Source of the DNA: a virus
Reading direction: 5' to 3' (one strand)
Length of the DNA: 38,854 nt
IMG/VR virus record: IMGVR_UViG_3300010885_024459
Span: 1 to 38,854 of that record
The translations under genes and the position numbers were made by a program. The number at the start of each line of letters is the position of its first letter. Within the stretch, counting starts at the first letter, position 1. The notes under the pieces were generated by a model. That model made no database searches. It worked only from the letters and a program-made list of their open reading frames with translations, and had not been told where the DNA came from. Of this stretch, positions 3,541-26,666 are shown piece by piece.

Positions 3541-3743
3541 CCGTCTGTTTTCCTGTCCTTACTGACCACAAAAACAAGGTCTTCGGCGTCCACTAACCGT
3601 AAAGCTTTCCATTGCTCCACTCCATGTACTCGAATCACATAGCACACTCGGTGTTCATTAGATGCTCTAATGATCTTTTGAAGTCGCACAACGTCGCACG
3701 TGCGGCCATTCCACGTCGCAAGTGAACCAGAGCGGTCATTCAT
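3537..3743 (-). CDS. Unknown 68-aa early protein
   Basis: I do not recognise this protein. It is small, mixed beta in character (YVIRVHGVEQWKALRLVDAEDLVFVVS), and sits between the IbrA-like gene and the nuclease gene with 4-8-nt overlaps at both ends. The tight coupling argues that it is expressed. No catalytic motif or membrane segment is visible. Confidence 0.55.
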   Translation of the reverse strand: MNDRSGSLATWNGRTCDVVRLQKIIRASNEHRVCYVIRVHGVEQWKALRLVDAEDLVFVVSKDRKTDG

Positions 3744-4953
3744 GTGACAAACCTTTTTCTAGTTTGCGTTTTGCTCGCAATTCCTTAAACGTCTGGTATG
3801 CGTCTGAAAGTGGCTGCGACTGCCCTAGTCCTTTGCACCAGTAATCGTTGCGCAAAAGAACCTTACACATTCGTCTCCATGATGGTGCCCAGCATTTAAC
3901 CTCAAGCTCATGCGGGGCTTCATCGGGAATAATCGTGTATCCTCGATGATGCCATCCAGCGATAAACTTCTGAAAGCGAGCCACGTAATGTGCGCGAGTT
4001 TTTGCAGGCATGGTCCGCAAAAGCAGATTGCAGAATGATTTCCATGTGTGCCCGTCTGGTTTACAGATCTTGTTGTACCCAGTCATATTGCCAGTCTCTT
4101 GAATGTACAACGCACCGCTGTTAACACCGTTAACACGGACGACCAGTTTGTACCATGTCTGTGGTTCAAGAATGTGATAAAGCCACAACCCTTTACGCTG
4201 ATCATCGCCATAGGGCTGGCATAACCGTTGCTGGCTAAGAGGTACGCCAGCCTTTGTCATTTGGTCGTAAATGCGATTGTGATGCTTGTCTGGGTTCTTT
4301 CCGTGGTACACCCAAATATCTTCAACACGCCAGTCGTATATCGGGTAGATGTTGTAGAGGCAGCGAGCAACTTTAGTTGTCCACTTGTGGCCATTGGCCA
4401 TTAAGCCATCTTTCCGTGAAACGATAGCTCGGTATCGATGCAACGACTCGTCGGAGCGAATTCCGATGAACGCACCAGTTTTTTTTCCTTGTGCGTACCA
4501 CTCACCAAAAATGACCATAAATTCTTCGAATTCCATCTTCGGGACATAGAAATCGTACTGGCTCAGATCTGCAGCCAATGCAGGTTTTTCACGAACCCAG
4601 ATGTCCTTCTTGTCTTCATCCCAGCAAATCCATCGTGGCTGGTAGTTTGAAACGGCGTTCCTCAGCAACATTTCAGCGCACACCCAGTGAAGTTCAATGT
4701 GTTCTGCGTACTGAGTTACCATTTCCTCGATATGTTTTATCGTATCGGAATACTGAGCTTCGAGGTCGATTACCAAAACGCCGACTTTGCGATTCCGAAG
4801 TTTCGCTTCATCCATTACTAGATGAAACATAACTGAACTGTCCTTGCCACCGGAAAATGAAATGTACAACCGTTCGAACATGTCGAAAGACTTCGCTATT
4901 CGCTCACGGGCCTCGTCTAACACTGATGTAAGTAGTTGTACCTTCTTTGTCAT
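3736..4953 (-). CDS. PAPS-reductase-family protein, IbrA-like
   Basis: The protein has 405 residues. SGGKDS at 34-39 is the PP-loop that binds ATP or a sulfonucleotide in the PAPS reductase, DndC and IbrA superfamily. It is followed by a Rossmann-like half (KVGVLVIDLEAQYS) and a long C-terminal part rich in Trp and Tyr. The start at 4953 is chosen over an upstream in-frame ATG because it overlaps the IbrB-like stop as TGATG and is preceded by GGAG at good spacing. IbrA and IbrB-like pairs are known from phages and islands. The reaction is not settled; sulfur transfer or nucleotide modification is possible. Confidence 0.75.
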   Translation of the reverse strand: MTKKVQLLTSVLDEARERIAKSFDMFERLYISFSGGKDSSVMFHLVMDEAKLRNRKVGVLVIDLEAQYSDTIKHIEEMVTQYAEHIELHWVCAEMLLRNAVSNYQPRWICWDEDKKDIWVREKPALAADLSQYDFYVPKMEFEEFMVIFGEWYAQGKKTGAFIGIRSDESLHRYRAIVSRKDGLMANGHKWTTKVARCLYNIYPIYDWRVEDIWVYHGKNPDKHHNRIYDQMTKAGVPLSQQRLCQPYGDDQRKGLWLYHILEPQTWYKLVVRVNGVNSGALYIQETGNMTGYNKICKPDGHTWKSFCNLLLRTMPAKTRAHYVARFQKFIAGWHHRGYTIIPDEAPHELEVKCWAPSWRRMCKVLLRNDYWCKGLGQSQPLSDAYQTFKELRAKRKLEKGLSHE

Positions 4954-6110
4954 CAGTAAATCTCCACCTGTCTGCCATAGGATAGGGCAGAGTGCATATC
5001 GAGCGTTTCCATTCCGCGAGCTTGCAGCCAACTGTTTAACGCTTCTAACGCAGTCTCATTGGCAGCTTCCTGCTGTCCGATCGTGAGTAAGTTAAAACCA
5101 GAGCAAAACTGACTGGGAATGCCACGAGCAACGCACATCGCAGCCTGACCTAGCCATGCAATGCGGTTCATGGCTACGTTTGTAAGATAGTGTTCGCAGG
5201 AGTGCGGCCATTGCTCAAAGACCTTTACCAGTGCGTCAGCAAATTGCCGGGTGTCCGACAGGAAAGCCGCATATTCATGCTGGCACTGTTCCTTAGTCTT
5301 CCCGTGAACCGTCGAGGAATAAAAACCAGCTTTGACGCACTCCCATTTGTCGTGTGTGTGGAACACCCTGTTGGGGTCAGAGGTATTGGCTGTTCTGACG
5401 GCTGCTCGCATTTCATCTGTCACCTCGTCAGTTAGTTCAATGAAGTCATCCGTTGGAGAACTGTCAGACGCTTCCCACGCTCGCGAGAAATCATGGTCTG
5501 TAAACAGGTGTTCCAGTCCAGTGATTTGGCAAAGACGCAAGATTTCGTCCTCATCCATTCCGAGTTCTTTGGCGATCCGCTTGTTTGTCCAATTGCGATT
5601 CTTTAGTTCGAGCACAATTTCCGACATAGCATCTACCTGATGCTTTCCGCGTGCCCTGTTGTGGCGAATCGTTGACGCAATGCGATCATTCTTGCCCTGC
5701 TGTTCTTTGCGAATTTCTACGACTGGCAAATAGCCTTGAATACGCTGAGCGACGAGTTGTGATTCCTTACCAACGCGCGACCTATGAAATCCGTCAACTA
5801 CTTCGTGCGCGTCGTCTTTGGCCCACGTGACGATTGGTTGTGTGTAACCGTCATTTACAATAGATACTTCCAGCAATTCCATTTCCGGCGGTGCAACCTT
5901 ATTAGGGTTGTATTCGTTTGCAGTTACGTTCGCGGCTGGAATCCACACGACACAATCAACTGGCTCATTTGCAAACGGTGATATCGCGTGCAGTTTGCGT
6001 TTCACGTTATTGATTGCCGCCACCTTCTGAGGCATGTCCATCATCTCTATTTCATTAAGCAGCATGTTTACCGTGTCAGAAATGCTGCATGTGCATGTTT
6101 CTATACTCAT
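4953..6110 (-). CDS. ParB/sulfiredoxin-fold protein, IbrB-like
   Basis: The protein has 385 residues. Residues about 58-155 form a ParB N-terminal-like domain with EVVDGFHRSR (103-112), matching the GxxR-type ATP- or CTP-binding motif of the ParB/sulfiredoxin fold. A helix-turn-helix follows (about 165-195, NRNWTNKRIAKELGMDEDEILRL). It precedes the PAPS-reductase-family gene with a one-base TGATG overlap, the standard order of IbrB-IbrA pairs, so the two probably act together. DNA binding is likely. The C-terminal 190 residues are not recognised. Confidence 0.7.
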   Translation of the reverse strand: MSIETCTCSISDTVNMLLNEIEMMDMPQKVAAINNVKRKLHAISPFANEPVDCVVWIPAANVTANEYNPNKVAPPEMELLEVSIVNDGYTQPIVTWAKDDAHEVVDGFHRSRVGKESQLVAQRIQGYLPVVEIRKEQQGKNDRIASTIRHNRARGKHQVDAMSEIVLELKNRNWTNKRIAKELGMDEDEILRLCQITGLEHLFTDHDFSRAWEASDSSPTDDFIELTDEVTDEMRAAVRTANTSDPNRVFHTHDKWECVKAGFYSSTVHGKTKEQCQHEYAAFLSDTRQFADALVKVFEQWPHSCEHYLTNVAMNRIAWLGQAAMCVARGIPSQFCSGFNLLTIGQQEAANETALEALNSWLQARGMETLDMHSALSYGRQVEIY

Positions 6111-6322: not shown

Positions 6323-7296
6323 GCGACACCTGCCGCAAGCTCAGAGATTCGTGAATCCGCAAGCCGATTTAGTGACTGCAAATCCTGAGCGGAAATCGTG
6401 CCAGCCTTCACGCTGGCGGATGCCCGCGCCATAGACTTCGACACATCTGCCGCTGATTTGCTTTCAGCGACGGCATCCCAAGCAGTCCGAGCAGAATCAC
6501 TCTTGAGCAACTGACGTTCTTTTGCCCAAACGTTTTCAACGCTGGTCTGGTTCGTAATCATGACGGTTTCTGGCATCTCCAGCGTCGTCACTGGTGCGAC
6601 CGTCACGGAAGGCGAGTCGTCATCATCTGGGTCCTGTTCTTCTGGTTCGCCTGAAACCACAGACCACAGTGCAGCTAGCAACCTGCGGCGTGCCTTAGCT
6701 TCCGGCCCATCGCTGCCATCAGTTTCGTAGCACGGTATGATGATTGGCAGATCGCCTTTACGCTCCACTAGAATTTTGCGGCCATCCAAAAAGCAAAACG
6801 CCTCACCATCAAAAACCATTTCCCACTTATCCGGGTTATTTGGTTTTTTTCGCACTCCGCGTGAAACGCAAGGTGCTTGAATGTTTATGCAACCTGTGCC
6901 AGCCAGTTTGTAACGGTGTCCAGTTTCTTTCACCATTACGCCTACGGAACCACCCTTGCCGCTAAAAATAGAAAAATGCTGCCCGTTTTCATCACTCAAT
7001 AAATACCTCTTGCCGAGAGCAATTTCACATCCCTGTAAAATCTGTTGATCTGACAATTTATATTTTTCAGAGTTAGCAACCTCAAAAGATGTATTTGCCC
7101 CGGAAATCACAATCGGAGCAATCTCCGGGCGATGCAATACCTCACGCAATGTTTTCAGTGCCTGCATGCGAAACAAGCTGGACACTACCTGCCCATGCGT
7201 TTTTTCAAGTTCAGACGCTTTGACAAGTGTAGTCATTGCCGTTTGTAACAAAACACCGGCCTGAATAGCCTGTTCATCAGTTATCAATGTGCCCAT
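6319..7296 (-). CDS. Unknown 325-aa early protein, possible recombination accessory
   Basis: I do not recognise this family with certainty. The N-terminal third is helical. Residues about 75-210 are mixed beta with motifs such as GKRYLLSDENGQHFSIFSGKGG and YKLAGTGCINI. An RRRLLAALWSVVSGE helix follows, then an acidic linker with DPDDDDSP, then a helical tail. Position next to nuclease and replication genes could suit a single-strand annealing or recombination protein, but I see no clear RecT, Erf or Red-beta signature. It overlaps both neighbours (20 and 4 nt). Confidence 0.6.
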   Translation of the reverse strand: MGTLITDEQAIQAGVLLQTAMTTLVKASELEKTHGQVVSSLFRMQALKTLREVLHRPEIAPIVISGANTSFEVANSEKYKLSDQQILQGCEIALGKRYLLSDENGQHFSIFSGKGGSVGVMVKETGHRYKLAGTGCINIQAPCVSRGVRKKPNNPDKWEMVFDGEAFCFLDGRKILVERKGDLPIIIPCYETDGSDGPEAKARRRLLAALWSVVSGEPEEQDPDDDDSPSVTVAPVTTLEMPETVMITNQTSVENVWAKERQLLKSDSARTAWDAVAESKSAADVSKSMARASASVKAGTISAQDLQSLNRLADSRISELAAGVA

Positions 7297-13118: not shown

Positions 13119-13598
13119 ATGATGATTCGACAGTGTGAAATCGGTTTTGTCAATAGCCCTATGGTACAGGTCGGAGTGAGTTTTTCGGACGGAAAGCACA
13201 AGCATGCAGTGTTCAAATGCCGGTGTGGCAAAAGAAAAATCTTACGAATCGATCATGTGAAGTCAGGTAGAACACAAAATTGCGGGTGTAAGTATGGTGC
13301 GTCTACTCATCGACAATCATATTCACGAGTGTATCGAGTATGGCAGGGAATGAACCAACGTTGCGGTAATAAAAAAGCTGCAAACTTTCCTCGATATGGT
13401 GGGCGTGGAATTACAGTCTGTGAGGAATGGAAAAAGTCTTTCGAGCAATTTTTAAGTGACATGGGTGAGCCAGAACACTCAGAAATGCAACTGGACAGAA
13501 TTGACAACAATCGAGGTTACTGCAAAACGAATTGTCGCTGGGTGACTCGGTCTGAAAACCAACAAAACCGAAGAAATAGCAAGCGGAATGCACGATGA
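13119..13598 (+). CDS. HNH homing-type endonuclease
   Basis: The protein has 159 residues. It carries a zinc-type cluster with KCRCGKRK and NCGC near residues 33-57. The core VYRVWQGMNQRC...YGGRGITVCEEW...LDRIDNNRGYCKTNCRWVT (71-143) is the standard phage HNH/AP2-like pattern of free-standing homing endonucleases. It is flanked by the membrane-protein and peptidase genes with an ATGA overlap to the latter. It probably is a selfish gene. Confidence 0.8.
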   Translation: MMIRQCEIGFVNSPMVQVGVSFSDGKHKHAVFKCRCGKRKILRIDHVKSGRTQNCGCKYGASTHRQSYSRVYRVWQGMNQRCGNKKAANFPRYGGRGITVCEEWKKSFEQFLSDMGEPEHSEMQLDRIDNNRGYCKTNCRWVTRSENQQNRRNSKRNAR

Positions 13599-14407
13599 GT
13601 GATTTTACAGGCTACATACCAGAAAACGAGGACCGTGACTTTCTTCAGTCGCTGACAGGCGGTGAGGAAATTTTGCGGCTCGTCGGTCAATATGAGGAAC
13701 AAACACTCGACCCGCGCCAGCTGATTCGCGTCGAGAACCAAGCGAATATGGGCAGCTGCGCCGGGCATTCGCTGTCGTCAAATCTGGAGTGGATTTACTG
13801 TCTGGCAACTCGCGGGCAAATCGTACAACTCAGTCGGATGGCTGGGTATATCCTCGCACAAAACGAAAACGGAATCCGCACAGATTCTGGTTCGACCATA
13901 AGTGCCGGCGTCAAAGTCGCATTGCGGGACGGTTTGCCTGAGGAACGCCTGTGGCCGTATCCCGCGTCATACACTCGGCAGATGCCCAACAATGATTGGC
14001 AGCAGAACGCTAAGCAATATGTGATTCAGAAGGCTGTCAAGATCACATCATTCGAACAGTGGCAAACATGGCTGGGATCCGGGCAGGGTGGAATTCACAC
14101 CGGTATCAGTTGGGGCAGCTCAATGAATAAGGCGGTTGTAGAGACGTTCAATGCCGGCGGTGGTGGTCATTCAATCGCAGCCCTGTGCTTGTCAGACCGA
14201 AAGAACGCTGCTGGCGAACATTATTCGTGGATCGCAAACAGTTGGTCGGAATCGTTCGGCACGAAGGGCTGGCAAGAATGGAGCCCGACGGCGATTCGCC
14301 AGATGTTGCAGCATCAGTTCACTGTGTTCGTGGGTCTTTCCGATATGCCAAACGTCAAGCCGCGTGAGTTCACTCTGGCGGATCTGAAGAAGTCTCTAAG
14401 GATCTGA
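13595..14407 (+). CDS. Papain-like (C1 family) cysteine peptidase
   Basis: The protein has 270 residues. Q49 and C55 in NQANMGSCAGHSLS, H192 in GGGGHSIAAL and N215 in ANSWSESFG match the oxyanion-hole Gln and the Cys-His-Asn triad of papain-like peptidases. There is no signal peptide, so the enzyme may act inside the cell or on the virion. It is coupled to the HNH gene by a 4-nt overlap and followed by a lipoprotein gene. It could cleave host proteins or virion proteins; the substrate is not indicated. Confidence 0.8.
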   Translation: MSDFTGYIPENEDRDFLQSLTGGEEILRLVGQYEEQTLDPRQLIRVENQANMGSCAGHSLSSNLEWIYCLATRGQIVQLSRMAGYILAQNENGIRTDSGSTISAGVKVALRDGLPEERLWPYPASYTRQMPNNDWQQNAKQYVIQKAVKITSFEQWQTWLGSGQGGIHTGISWGSSMNKAVVETFNAGGGGHSIAALCLSDRKNAAGEHYSWIANSWSESFGTKGWQEWSPTAIRQMLQHQFTVFVGLSDMPNVKPREFTLADLKKSLRI

Positions 14408-25080: not shown

Positions 25081-25143
25081 ATGAAAACATGCGTTGACAA
25101 TGGATCGCGTTCTTGTAACATTGTGACCCCGACAGTCTGCTAG
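25081..25143 (+). CDS. 20-codon possible leader peptide
   Basis: An ATG follows the preceding TGA directly and reads MKTCVDNGSRSCNIVTPTVC to a TAG at 25141-25143 that falls inside the next hairpin. A stop inside a hairpin followed by a terminator-like stem is the layout of a leader-peptide attenuator. It is short, so chance is possible, and it conflicts with the promoter placed at 25094. Confidence 0.25.
   Translation: MKTCVDNGSRSCNIVTPTVC
25094..25121 (+). promoter_or_regulatory. Candidate promoter of the Cas7-like module
   Basis: TTGACA at 25094-25099 is 16 bp from TAACAT at 25116-25121. Four of six -10 bases match consensus. The large dyad at 25121-25155 follows, so a bound protein or hairpin may control it. 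Confidence 0.4.
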
Positions 25144-25229
25144 CTGTCGTCACAACTTGGATTTTATGAGCTTCGGCTCATTGATCAGCCCGCGTCAGAC
25201 GTCTAGCAGCGTTTGATTGCGGGTTTTTT
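25121..25229 (+). ncRNA. Structured leader or small RNA with three stems and a terminator-like end
   Basis: Stem 1: TTGTGA and CGACAG (25121-25126, 25130-25135) pair with CTGTCG and TCACAA (25144-25149, 25150-25155), with a CCC bulge. Stem 2: ATGAGC (25166-25171) and GCTCAT (25176-25181) close a TTCG tetraloop. Stem 3: CCCGC (25189-25193) pairs with GCGGG (25219-25223), followed by T6. It ends 14 nt before the start of the Cas7-like gene. It could be an attenuator of the module or a small RNA that the module uses. Confidence 0.5.
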
Positions 25230-25243
25230 CATGGAGTTGAGAC

Positions 25244-25810
25244 ATGTCGAGTGTTACAAATTTAAGTTTTCGTTTGGAATCTGCTGCCCCGATTTTTTTC
25301 GGTAAGCCTGTCTTCGAAAAGAAGAACAGCGACGAAACGCATGAGCAGTTCGAAGAACGGACGTGGCAACTAAAAGTGCATCAGGCTGATGATGGGCAGG
25401 TGTTCGTTCAGCCGTTTGCACTCAAAAATGCTCTGGAGGCTGCTGGCAGTCGCTTGAACATGAAACTGAGCGGCAAAGCGACTTACACGAAACTGTTTCG
25501 GCAGGGAATTATGATCAATGATAACCTGTTGCTGACGAATGCTGCCGGTGGTTCAGTCACGATCGAAGACGTCAAGCCGATTTCAATGTTTGTTCCGTCC
25601 GACGGCAAACGTGGAAGCGGGAAACGAGTGATGCGGATTTTTCCGCAGTTGTCGAAGTGGTTCACGACGGTCCAAATTTTGTGCTTTGATAATCGGTTGA
25701 CCGAGGAAGTTGTACGAAAGCATCTGGAAGAGGCTGGCAAGTTCATTGGTTTCGGTTCAATGAGAGTCGAAAACGGTGGCGTTGCAGGTCGGTTTTCCGT
25801 CGTTGAGTAA
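25244..25810 (+). CDS. RAMP/Cas7-like protein of the pentamer-array module
   Basis: The protein has 188 residues, with GGAG 7 bases before the start. It is predominantly beta/alpha, with conserved-looking blocks VFVQPFALKNALEAAG (53-68) and FVPSDGKRGSGKRVMRIFP (116-134, basic). It ends with GKFIGFGSMRVENGGVAGRF (165-184), a glycine-rich loop like that at the C-terminus of RAMP-fold RNA-binding proteins (Cas7, Cas6). From memory, relatives occur in other phages with pentamer repeats nearby, but I could not check this. It is inferred to bind RNA from the adjacent arrays. The fold is not proven. Confidence 0.6.
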   Translation: MSSVTNLSFRLESAAPIFFGKPVFEKKNSDETHEQFEERTWQLKVHQADDGQVFVQPFALKNALEAAGSRLNMKLSGKATYTKLFRQGIMINDNLLLTNAAGGSVTIEDVKPISMFVPSDGKRGSGKRVMRIFPQLSKWFTTVQILCFDNRLTEEVVRKHLEEAGKFIGFGSMRVENGGVAGRFSVVE

Positions 25811-25819
25811 TCCAGATTA

Positions 25820-25889
25820 GACTCGACGGGACGGAACATGACTCGACAGGAAAGGGCGGGATATGTCCGGATACGACAAGACAAGACTT
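25820..25889 (+). repeat. Pentamer array 1, block a (14 units of 5 bp)
   Basis: Fourteen pentamers fill exactly 70 bp in one phase. The consensus is GAC plus two variable bases. Most units match GACNN; deviants are AACAT at 25835, GAAAG at 25850, GGCGG at 25855, GATAT at 25860, GTCCG at 25865 and GATAC at 25870. The last unit is GACTT. It begins 9 bp after the stop of the Cas7-like gene and shows no convincing coding sequence. Confidence 0.85.
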
Positions 25890-25911
25890 TTGGTGGCTCG
25901 CGGAATAGCCA
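25890..25911 (+). repeat. Linker between blocks of array 1
   Basis: This 22-bp linker holds the core TGGTGGCTCGCG, which is 11 of 12 identical to the linker in array 2. TGGCT and AGCCA within it can pair (loop 8), but that stem is not kept in array 2, so the sequence rather than the hairpin seems conserved. Confidence 0.7.
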
Positions 25912-25981
25912 GACTTGACAACAAGAGACGCGACGTGACGCGACAGGACGCAACCCAACAGGACGCGACAAGACACGACTG
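25912..25981 (+). repeat. Pentamer array 1, block b (14 units of 5 bp)
   Basis: Again 14 pentamers fill exactly 70 bp. Deviants from GACNN are CAAGA at 25922, AACCC at 25952 and AACAG at 25957. It ends 29 bp before the start of the 161-aa gene. Together with block a it makes a two-part array. Confidence 0.85.
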
Positions 25982-26010
25982 CTTCACTCATTCAATGGAG
26001 ATCACTTAAT

Positions 26011-26496
26011 ATGGAAAACGGCCGATTTGCAAAATCAGCGGATACAGCGATTATTGAAAACCGATTGAGGAACACTCAGGTCGGTGAATTGGTAACATAC
26101 GACGAACTGTCGAAACTTTTGGGCAGAAATGTCATCGAGTTCTGCCGCAGTAATGTAAATTCAGCACGGCATACGCTTGTCAGGGAGTCTATTTTCTTCG
26201 ACTGCGTAGCGAATCAGGGTTATCAGAGACTCAACTCAGAGCAGGCAGTAAATGCTTCCGAGCATTACCGGACACGGGCAAAGAAGGCAGCACGTCGTGG
26301 ACTTGTTCATTTGCAGCACGTACCGTTTGACGGTTTAACGGATGAAGGCAAGAAGAAACATTTGACGATGTCTGCGCAGCTGGGAGCCGTAGAACTGTTC
26401 AGCACAACAAAGGCAACAAAAAGAATCGAAACTGCAGTGAAAGACGTGTCACATAAAATGGCAATCGGTGAAACGTTAAAATTATTTGGCGGGTGA
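26011..26496 (+). CDS. Winged-helix-like basic partner protein of the pentamer-array module
   Basis: The protein has 161 residues. Residues about 10-80 have a winged-helix-like pattern (ENRLRNTQVGELVTYDELSKLLGRNVIEFCRSNVNSARHTLVRES...FFDCVANQGYQRL). A strongly basic helix RTRAKKAARRG (87-97) follows. The tail is helical. From memory, proteins of this shape occur next to relatives of the 188-aa protein in other phages; this needs a search. It lies between the two arrays, so it is probably part of the same system, binding DNA or RNA. Confidence 0.6.
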   Translation: MENGRFAKSADTAIIENRLRNTQVGELVTYDELSKLLGRNVIEFCRSNVNSARHTLVRESIFFDCVANQGYQRLNSEQAVNASEHYRTRAKKAARRGLVHLQHVPFDGLTDEGKKKHLTMSAQLGAVELFSTTKATKRIETAVKDVSHKMAIGETLKLFGG

Positions 26497-26500
26497 AGAC

Positions 26501-26570
26501 ATCATGACGTGACATGACCCGACGTGACAGGATCAGACTCGAAAAGACGCAACTCGACGAGACATGACTT
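26501..26570 (+). repeat. Pentamer array 2, block a (13 clear units plus one degenerate)
   Basis: Thirteen in-phase pentamers run from 26506 to 26570, and the five bases before them (ATCAT) would complete a 14-unit, 70-bp block. Deviants from GACNN are GATCA at 26531, GAAAA at 26541 and AACTC at 26551. The last unit is GACTT, as in array 1 block a. It begins immediately after the stop of the 161-aa gene. Confidence 0.8.
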
Positions 26571-26596
26571 CTCATATGGTGGCTTGCGATTACCTA
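26571..26596 (+). repeat. Linker between blocks of array 2
   Basis: This 26-bp linker contains TGGTGGCTTGCG, matching the array 1 linker at 11 of 12 positions. The rest differs. The shared core suggests a binding or processing site common to both arrays. Confidence 0.7.
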
Positions 26597-26666
26597 GACT
26601 GGACCCGACCGGACAACACCTGACAAGACATAACCCAACATAACTCGACTCGACGAGACAAGACTT
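26597..26666 (+). repeat. Pentamer array 2, block b (14 units of 5 bp)
   Basis: Fourteen pentamers fill exactly 70 bp. Deviants from GACNN are CACCT at 26617, AACCC at 26632, AACAT at 26637 and AACTC at 26642. The last unit is GACTT. It ends 18 bp before the methyltransferase start. Confidence 0.85.

Follow-up and report, generated by a model that had tools for sequence, protein, structure and literature searches.

Genes, leader and arrays of the cassette

The window, that is, the whole stretch of viral DNA analyzed here (38,854 nucleotides; IMG/VR record IMGVR_UViG_3300010885_024459), carries a cassette in which vipr, followed by two vrRNAs, precedes vap, which is likewise followed by two vrRNAs. 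A candidate promoter and a structured leader lie ahead of vipr. The names anticipate the assignment reached below. The features are as follows.

25094–25121, plus strand: candidate promoter TTGACA-N16-TAACAT, from a motif scan whose matches were no more numerous than expected by chance
25129–25237, plus strand: structured leader RNA, 109 nt, three hairpins
25244–25810, plus strand: vipr, 188 aa, Cas7/RAMP fold, phrog_4652
25820–25889, plus strand: vrRNA 1 repeat tract, 14 in-phase GACNN units; NN series TC GG GG AT TC AG AG GG AT CG AC AA AA TT
25890–25911, plus strand: linker between vrRNA 1 and vrRNA 2, sequence TTGGTGGCTCGCGGAATAGCCA, its core kept in 17 copies in seven phages
25912–25981, plus strand: vrRNA 2 repeat tract, 14 in-phase GACNN units; NN series TT AA GA GC GT GC AG GC CC AG GC AA AC TG
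26011–26496, plus strand: vap (Vap1-like), 161 aa, N-terminal winged helix, phrog_5926
26506–26570, plus strand: vrRNA 3 repeat tract, 13 in-phase GACNN units; NN series GT AT CC GT AG CA TC AA GC TC GA AT TT
26571–26596, plus strand: linker between vrRNA 3 and vrRNA 4, including GGTGGCTTGCG
26597–26666, plus strand: vrRNA 4 repeat tract, 14 in-phase GACNN units; NN series TG CC CG AA CT AA AT CC AT TC TC GA AA TT

An earlier sequence-only reading had placed two genes and two arrays in this segment, each array close behind the stop codon of one gene and composed of two blocks that share a linker. Both open reading frames and all four blocks were found there: array 1 starts at 25820 and array 2 at 26506, each 9 nt past the stop codon of vipr and vap, respectively, the blocks contain 13–14 units each, and the linkers within both block pairs are 22–26 nt long with a common core, GGTGGCTYGCG. 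The same reading had described GACNN units in fixed phase. The phase was kept throughout, but the exact GAC triplet was present in only about 75–80% of the units, with AAC, GAT, GAA, GGC, and GTC as one-base deviants. Several units of vrRNA 1 were degenerate, which was counted against the assignment to VIPR. The longest in-phase GAC run in the window comprised 11 units, compared with 5 at most in 200 third-order Markov copies, and a scan of both strands of the window found no further GACNN array. These arrays were missed by a default run of Tandem Repeats Finder because the NN positions vary.

The end units of the vrRNAs (GACAAGACAAGACTT) and the linker GGTGGCTYGCGGAATA were conserved, and the last guide of each array ended differently. 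No stable fold was seen for the vrRNA tail, which is short and weakly structured; this was also counted against the assignment to VIPR. A search of Rfam near the window arrays gave no match above the threshold. In three relatives, a terminator-like hairpin and a T run were observed at the end of the last array (L125, approximately 5950–5990, AAAGGCGGCTGAG...CTCAGCCGCCTTTTT; L126, approximately 6610–6640; L123, approximately 4225–4260), and these hairpins fit with transcription of the arrays.

Upstream of vipr, most of the six relatives that were aligned share the GTTGAC box of the candidate promoter, and all of them have TTGAC. Hairpin 3 of the leader is a terminator-like stem with U6, and its loop is complementary to that of hairpin 1, forming a possible kissing loop. 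The leader fold had a z-score of −4.1. Changes on both sides of a pair were found in 8 of 37 pairs, including one in the loop–loop helix, compared with 2.0 in shuffled alignments, and none of 500 shuffles scored as high, a modest signal drawn from five sequences. A covariance model of the leader matched only before vipr, in the clade of the window. We propose that the leader is an attenuator.

Elsewhere in the window, a PAPS-reductase/DUF3440 protein and a papain-family cysteine protease are encoded at 3736–5031 and 13595–14407, respectively, and short tandem repeats (AGGGAT plus a 23-base unit) occur at 2386–2504, in or near a reverse-strand open reading frame.

Relationship of the cassette to VIPR

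VIPR was reported in a 2026 preprint (PMC13142463), the available text of which describes a RAMP encoded by phages, a DNA-binding accessory protein, Vap, and vrRNAs of 9–16 pentamers, each composed of a GGY triplet and a hypervariable NN. In that text, the NN dinucleotides pair with double-stranded DNA, one target base being skipped per step, to give transcriptional repression, and the SUSP1 arrays are transcribed into RNA that copurifies with the RAMP (PMC13142463).

A profile built from 14 homologs of the 188-aa protein had a sole significant match, PDB 36pp_D, "SUSP1 Vipr" (E = 1.8e-9), and in the SUSP1 genome, Vipr matched the 188-aa family in an HMM comparison (E = 1.5e-12). The AlphaFold2 model of the 188-aa protein had a pLDDT of 89.5. 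The best among the Foldseek matches shown were Cas7/RAMP subunits of CRISPR complexes, and VIA-align superimposed the model on Csm3 with Z up to 10.4 over some 155 residues. The sequence-only reading had taken this protein for a Cas7-like RAMP and named structure prediction as a check; the prediction agreed, giving a RAMP/Cas7-related fold like those of Csm3 and type VII Cas7. Comparison of the window vipr with that of L122 gave dN of 0.017 and dS of 0.66 (dN/dS of about 0.03), which indicates that vipr is under strong purifying selection.

The HMM of the 161-aa family matched SUSP1 ALH47068 (vap1), whose gene adjoins that of SUSP1 Vipr (E = 5e-9). In the model of the 161-aa protein (pLDDT of 91), matches to winged helices spanned residues 2–81; single Foldseek matches were weak, yet nearly all top rows were winged-helix proteins. 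The winged-helix-like character noticed earlier thus corresponds to an N-terminal winged helix in the model.

The match to 36pp, the homology with Vap1, and the pentamer code identify the system, which the sequence-only reading had considered undescribed, as VIPR (PMC13142463). We conclude that the segment of 25.1–26.7 kb is very probably a phage-borne VIPR system of the Vap1-bearing kind. That reading had also related the five-base unit to a Cas7 kink at every sixth base that exposes five bases; in the mechanism set out in the available text, by contrast, the triplet serves as a scaffold, only the NN letters pair, and one base is skipped (PMC13142463).

As far as the available text of the preprint describes them, the VIPR systems of the SUSP1 and P. 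fulva clade share with the window a small phage RAMP with a single RRM, a DNA-binding partner homologous to Vap1, and intergenic RNAs with a constant triplet and a hypervariable NN, the window having 13–14 units and the published arrays 9–16 (PMC13142463). The two differ in the triplet: the clade of the window, like the window itself, has GAC instead of GGY, so that the strict GGY triplet was not matched; the same text also allows "a related consensus" (PMC13142463). In VIPR, each vrRNA ends in an invariable 3' tail. Unlike the pseudoknotted tail described there for SUSP1, the window linker GGTGGCTYGCGGAATA has no clear pseudoknot (PMC13142463), and unlike in SUSP1 and P. fulva VIPR, the window vipr is preceded by a structured leader with a terminator-like stem and a possible kissing loop. 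The window Vipr is distant in sequence from SUSP1 Vipr, and their alignment covers the C-terminal half. Relative to the available text, the GAC variant, its leader, the mobility of the cassette, and the residue–triplet association described below appear to be new, the VIPR kind itself having been reported in 2026 (PMC13142463).

The cassette also resembles Class 1 CRISPR-Cas systems (Csm3, type VII Cas7) in its RAMP/Cas7 fold with a G-loop and in the placement of a variable guide beside a constant element. Unlike those systems, it has no CRISPR repeats, uses five-base guide units, and encodes a single small RAMP. The window guides are interrupted every five bases and do not match a CRISPR array of contiguous spacers, and neither cas1/cas2 nor other cas genes were found among the scanned cassette neighbors and phage genes (head/packaging, other, and unknown).

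Distribution, guide turnover, and scaffold triplets among relatives

IMG/VR was scanned with the pattern (GACNN)5GAC alone, without use of the proteins, and the resulting loci include that of the window. A Vipr relative was encoded in 25 of 30 loci with two or more long blocks, compared with 1 of 77 loci without a block, and the 161-aa family was also encoded in many of the loci found by the pattern. Conversely, a homolog search, which the sequence-only reading had suggested to see whether the arrays accompany both proteins, found pentamer arrays alongside most 188-aa relatives on the same strand; the co-occurrence was seen across phages. The array sense was that of vipr in nearly all loci, and nearly all Vipr loci had a Vap family gene adjacent. 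The 2043 GAC units of all loci were approximately 95% constant in the triplet, partly by construction because blocks were chosen by their triplet, and near uniform at both N positions. In one phage (L042 and L031; contig 3300037070_005035), more than 10 GAC blocks were observed over several kilobases, far exceeding the set in the window.

Guides differed between close relatives. In L123 and L124, the vap DNA was identical and vipr dS was 0.15; the guide behind vap was common to both (25 of 26 NN letters the same), and the first guides were unrelated. L125 and L126, with a vipr dS of 0.11, had no guide in common. As judged from these sequences, guide replacement far outpaces change at synonymous sites. 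The likeness of the L123 and L124 contigs to the window DNA is restricted to 25129 to approximately 26570–26590, with 80–82% identity. Because this likeness is confined to the cassette, the cassette appears to move as a unit between otherwise unrelated phages. Internal duplications were observed in some arrays, as in L123.

Members of the family differ in their constant triplet (GAC, GGC, CGC, GTT, CTC, or one of a few others), which changes many times along the Vipr tree. Among 65 labeled Viprs, positions 133 and 172 (numbered as in the window protein; position 172 lies in the G-loop) showed the strongest association with the triplet, residue 133 tracking the first base and residue 172 the middle base. 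The association was kept, with exceptions, in 45 Viprs fetched afterwards, in which C was the first base in all 9 cases with Tyr133, and the middle base was not G in any of the 5 labeled loci whose residue 172 is not Arg. When 97 Viprs were pooled, Tyr133 was found in 15 of 20 with first base C and in 0 of 77 others, and Arg172 in 53 of 53 with middle G and in 9 of 44 others, these counts being uncorrected for shared ancestry. Strictly supported tree contrasts numbered two per trait, with none in the opposite direction; because these were too few, ancestry was controlled by comparing disjoint pairs of Vipr relatives that are 50–90% identical. Residue 133 differed in 16 of 20 pairs when the first base differed and in 4 of 43 when it was the same, and residue 172 differed in 18 of 27 and 5 of 42 pairs for the middle base, respectively; each was the best of all columns.

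These results suggest, with moderate confidence on our part, that Vipr holds a switchable scaffold code in which residue 133, together with residue 117, sets the first triplet base and residue 172 the middle base, and that phages switch it repeatedly, giving mutually orthogonal systems. Within such a code, Phe133 would go with G and Tyr133 with C, and Arg172 would accompany every middle G. Residues 133 and 172 may contact the triplet bases directly. SUSP1 Vipr, in which the aligned residues differ, does not follow the code.

Targets, competing readings, and proposed working

Seed scans of IMG/VR with window guides 4 and 3 gave two matches each, at chance level and without extension, and thus no convincing target. 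When 288–353 pooled guides were compared with both strands of approximately 2.8 Mb of loci under a one-base skip, no overall excess over shuffled guides was found; skip rules of 0, 2, and 4 (in the first run also 3 and 5) on the same loci likewise gave none. The best one-base-skip match paired the GAC guide L140:5861–5935 with L365 7604–7648 (contig 3300020042_006587), 25 of 30 NN letters agreeing. This site lies in the gene for a phage ATPase, and the skipped base falls on the wobble position; its chance expectation is approximately 0.1–0.3, and it is not significant once the number of guides is allowed for. No site other than this one emerged from the last IMG/VR scan. Because no target of the window guides and no pooled excess was found, the one-base-skip reading rule proposed for GAC systems rests on homology. 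These negative results, like the GAC triplet, were counted against the assignment to VIPR.

TRAP binds (G/U)AG repeats with two-base spacers in the leader RNA of trp genes, and its fold is not that of Cas7. The (G/U)AGNN sites of TRAP and the window arrays both have a constant triplet every five bases; unlike TRAP, the window combines a Cas7 fold, hypervariable NN, and multiple guides. This likeness in spacing and triplet, and the fact that no targets were identified, would suit an RNA scaffold or sponge bound by the RAMP, with GAC triplets that hold an oligomer and NN letters that are uninformative and drifting. We consider this very unlikely, as guides are swapped wholesale between phages with near-identical vipr and vap, faster than synonymous drift, and the NN letters are the guide in the characterized homologs described in the available text (PMC13142463).

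It is highly improbable that the arrays act as DNA to which the winged-helix protein binds, whether as an iteron, a centromere, or a packaging site. The winged helix of the 161-aa protein and the location of the arrays among head genes would agree with such a role, but the array sense matches vipr in nearly all loci, the triplet covaries with RAMP residues, and the SUSP1 arrays are expressed as RNA according to the available text (PMC13142463). Simple-sequence expansion without function, to which the internal duplications in some arrays (L123) would conform, has a next to negligible probability: the architecture recurs in unrelated phages with conserved linker and end units, phase and block length are kept far beyond chance, and the arrays co-occur with Vipr.

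Under the preferred assignment to VIPR, the candidate promoter and the structured leader would drive vipr, two vrRNAs, vap, and two vrRNAs. Copies of Vipr would line each vrRNA, one per five-base unit, each gripping GAC, the constant triplet, and presenting the two N bases. Together, these dinucleotides would read double-stranded DNA belonging to a rival phage or satellite, one base being skipped per step, and transcription of the target would be blocked with the help of the winged-helix Vap. We infer that the arrays are transcribed and bound by Vipr in this phage, and formation of the ribonucleoprotein, one-base-skip DNA recognition, and repression are expected by extension from the SUSP1 system.

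VIPR represents a newly reported RNA-guided DNA recognition and a proposed ancestor of CRISPR, and the window provides a compact GAC-scaffold example outside the strict published GGY description. The shared cassette and the fast replacement of guides fit the proposed use of VIPR in phage–phage conflict. If the scaffold code is true, orthogonal VIPR systems would ignore each other's guide RNAs. The residues pointed to by the relatives may determine which RNA scaffold is used. This would make orthogonal VIPR tools possible and would permit guide reading by a RAMP to be tested directly.
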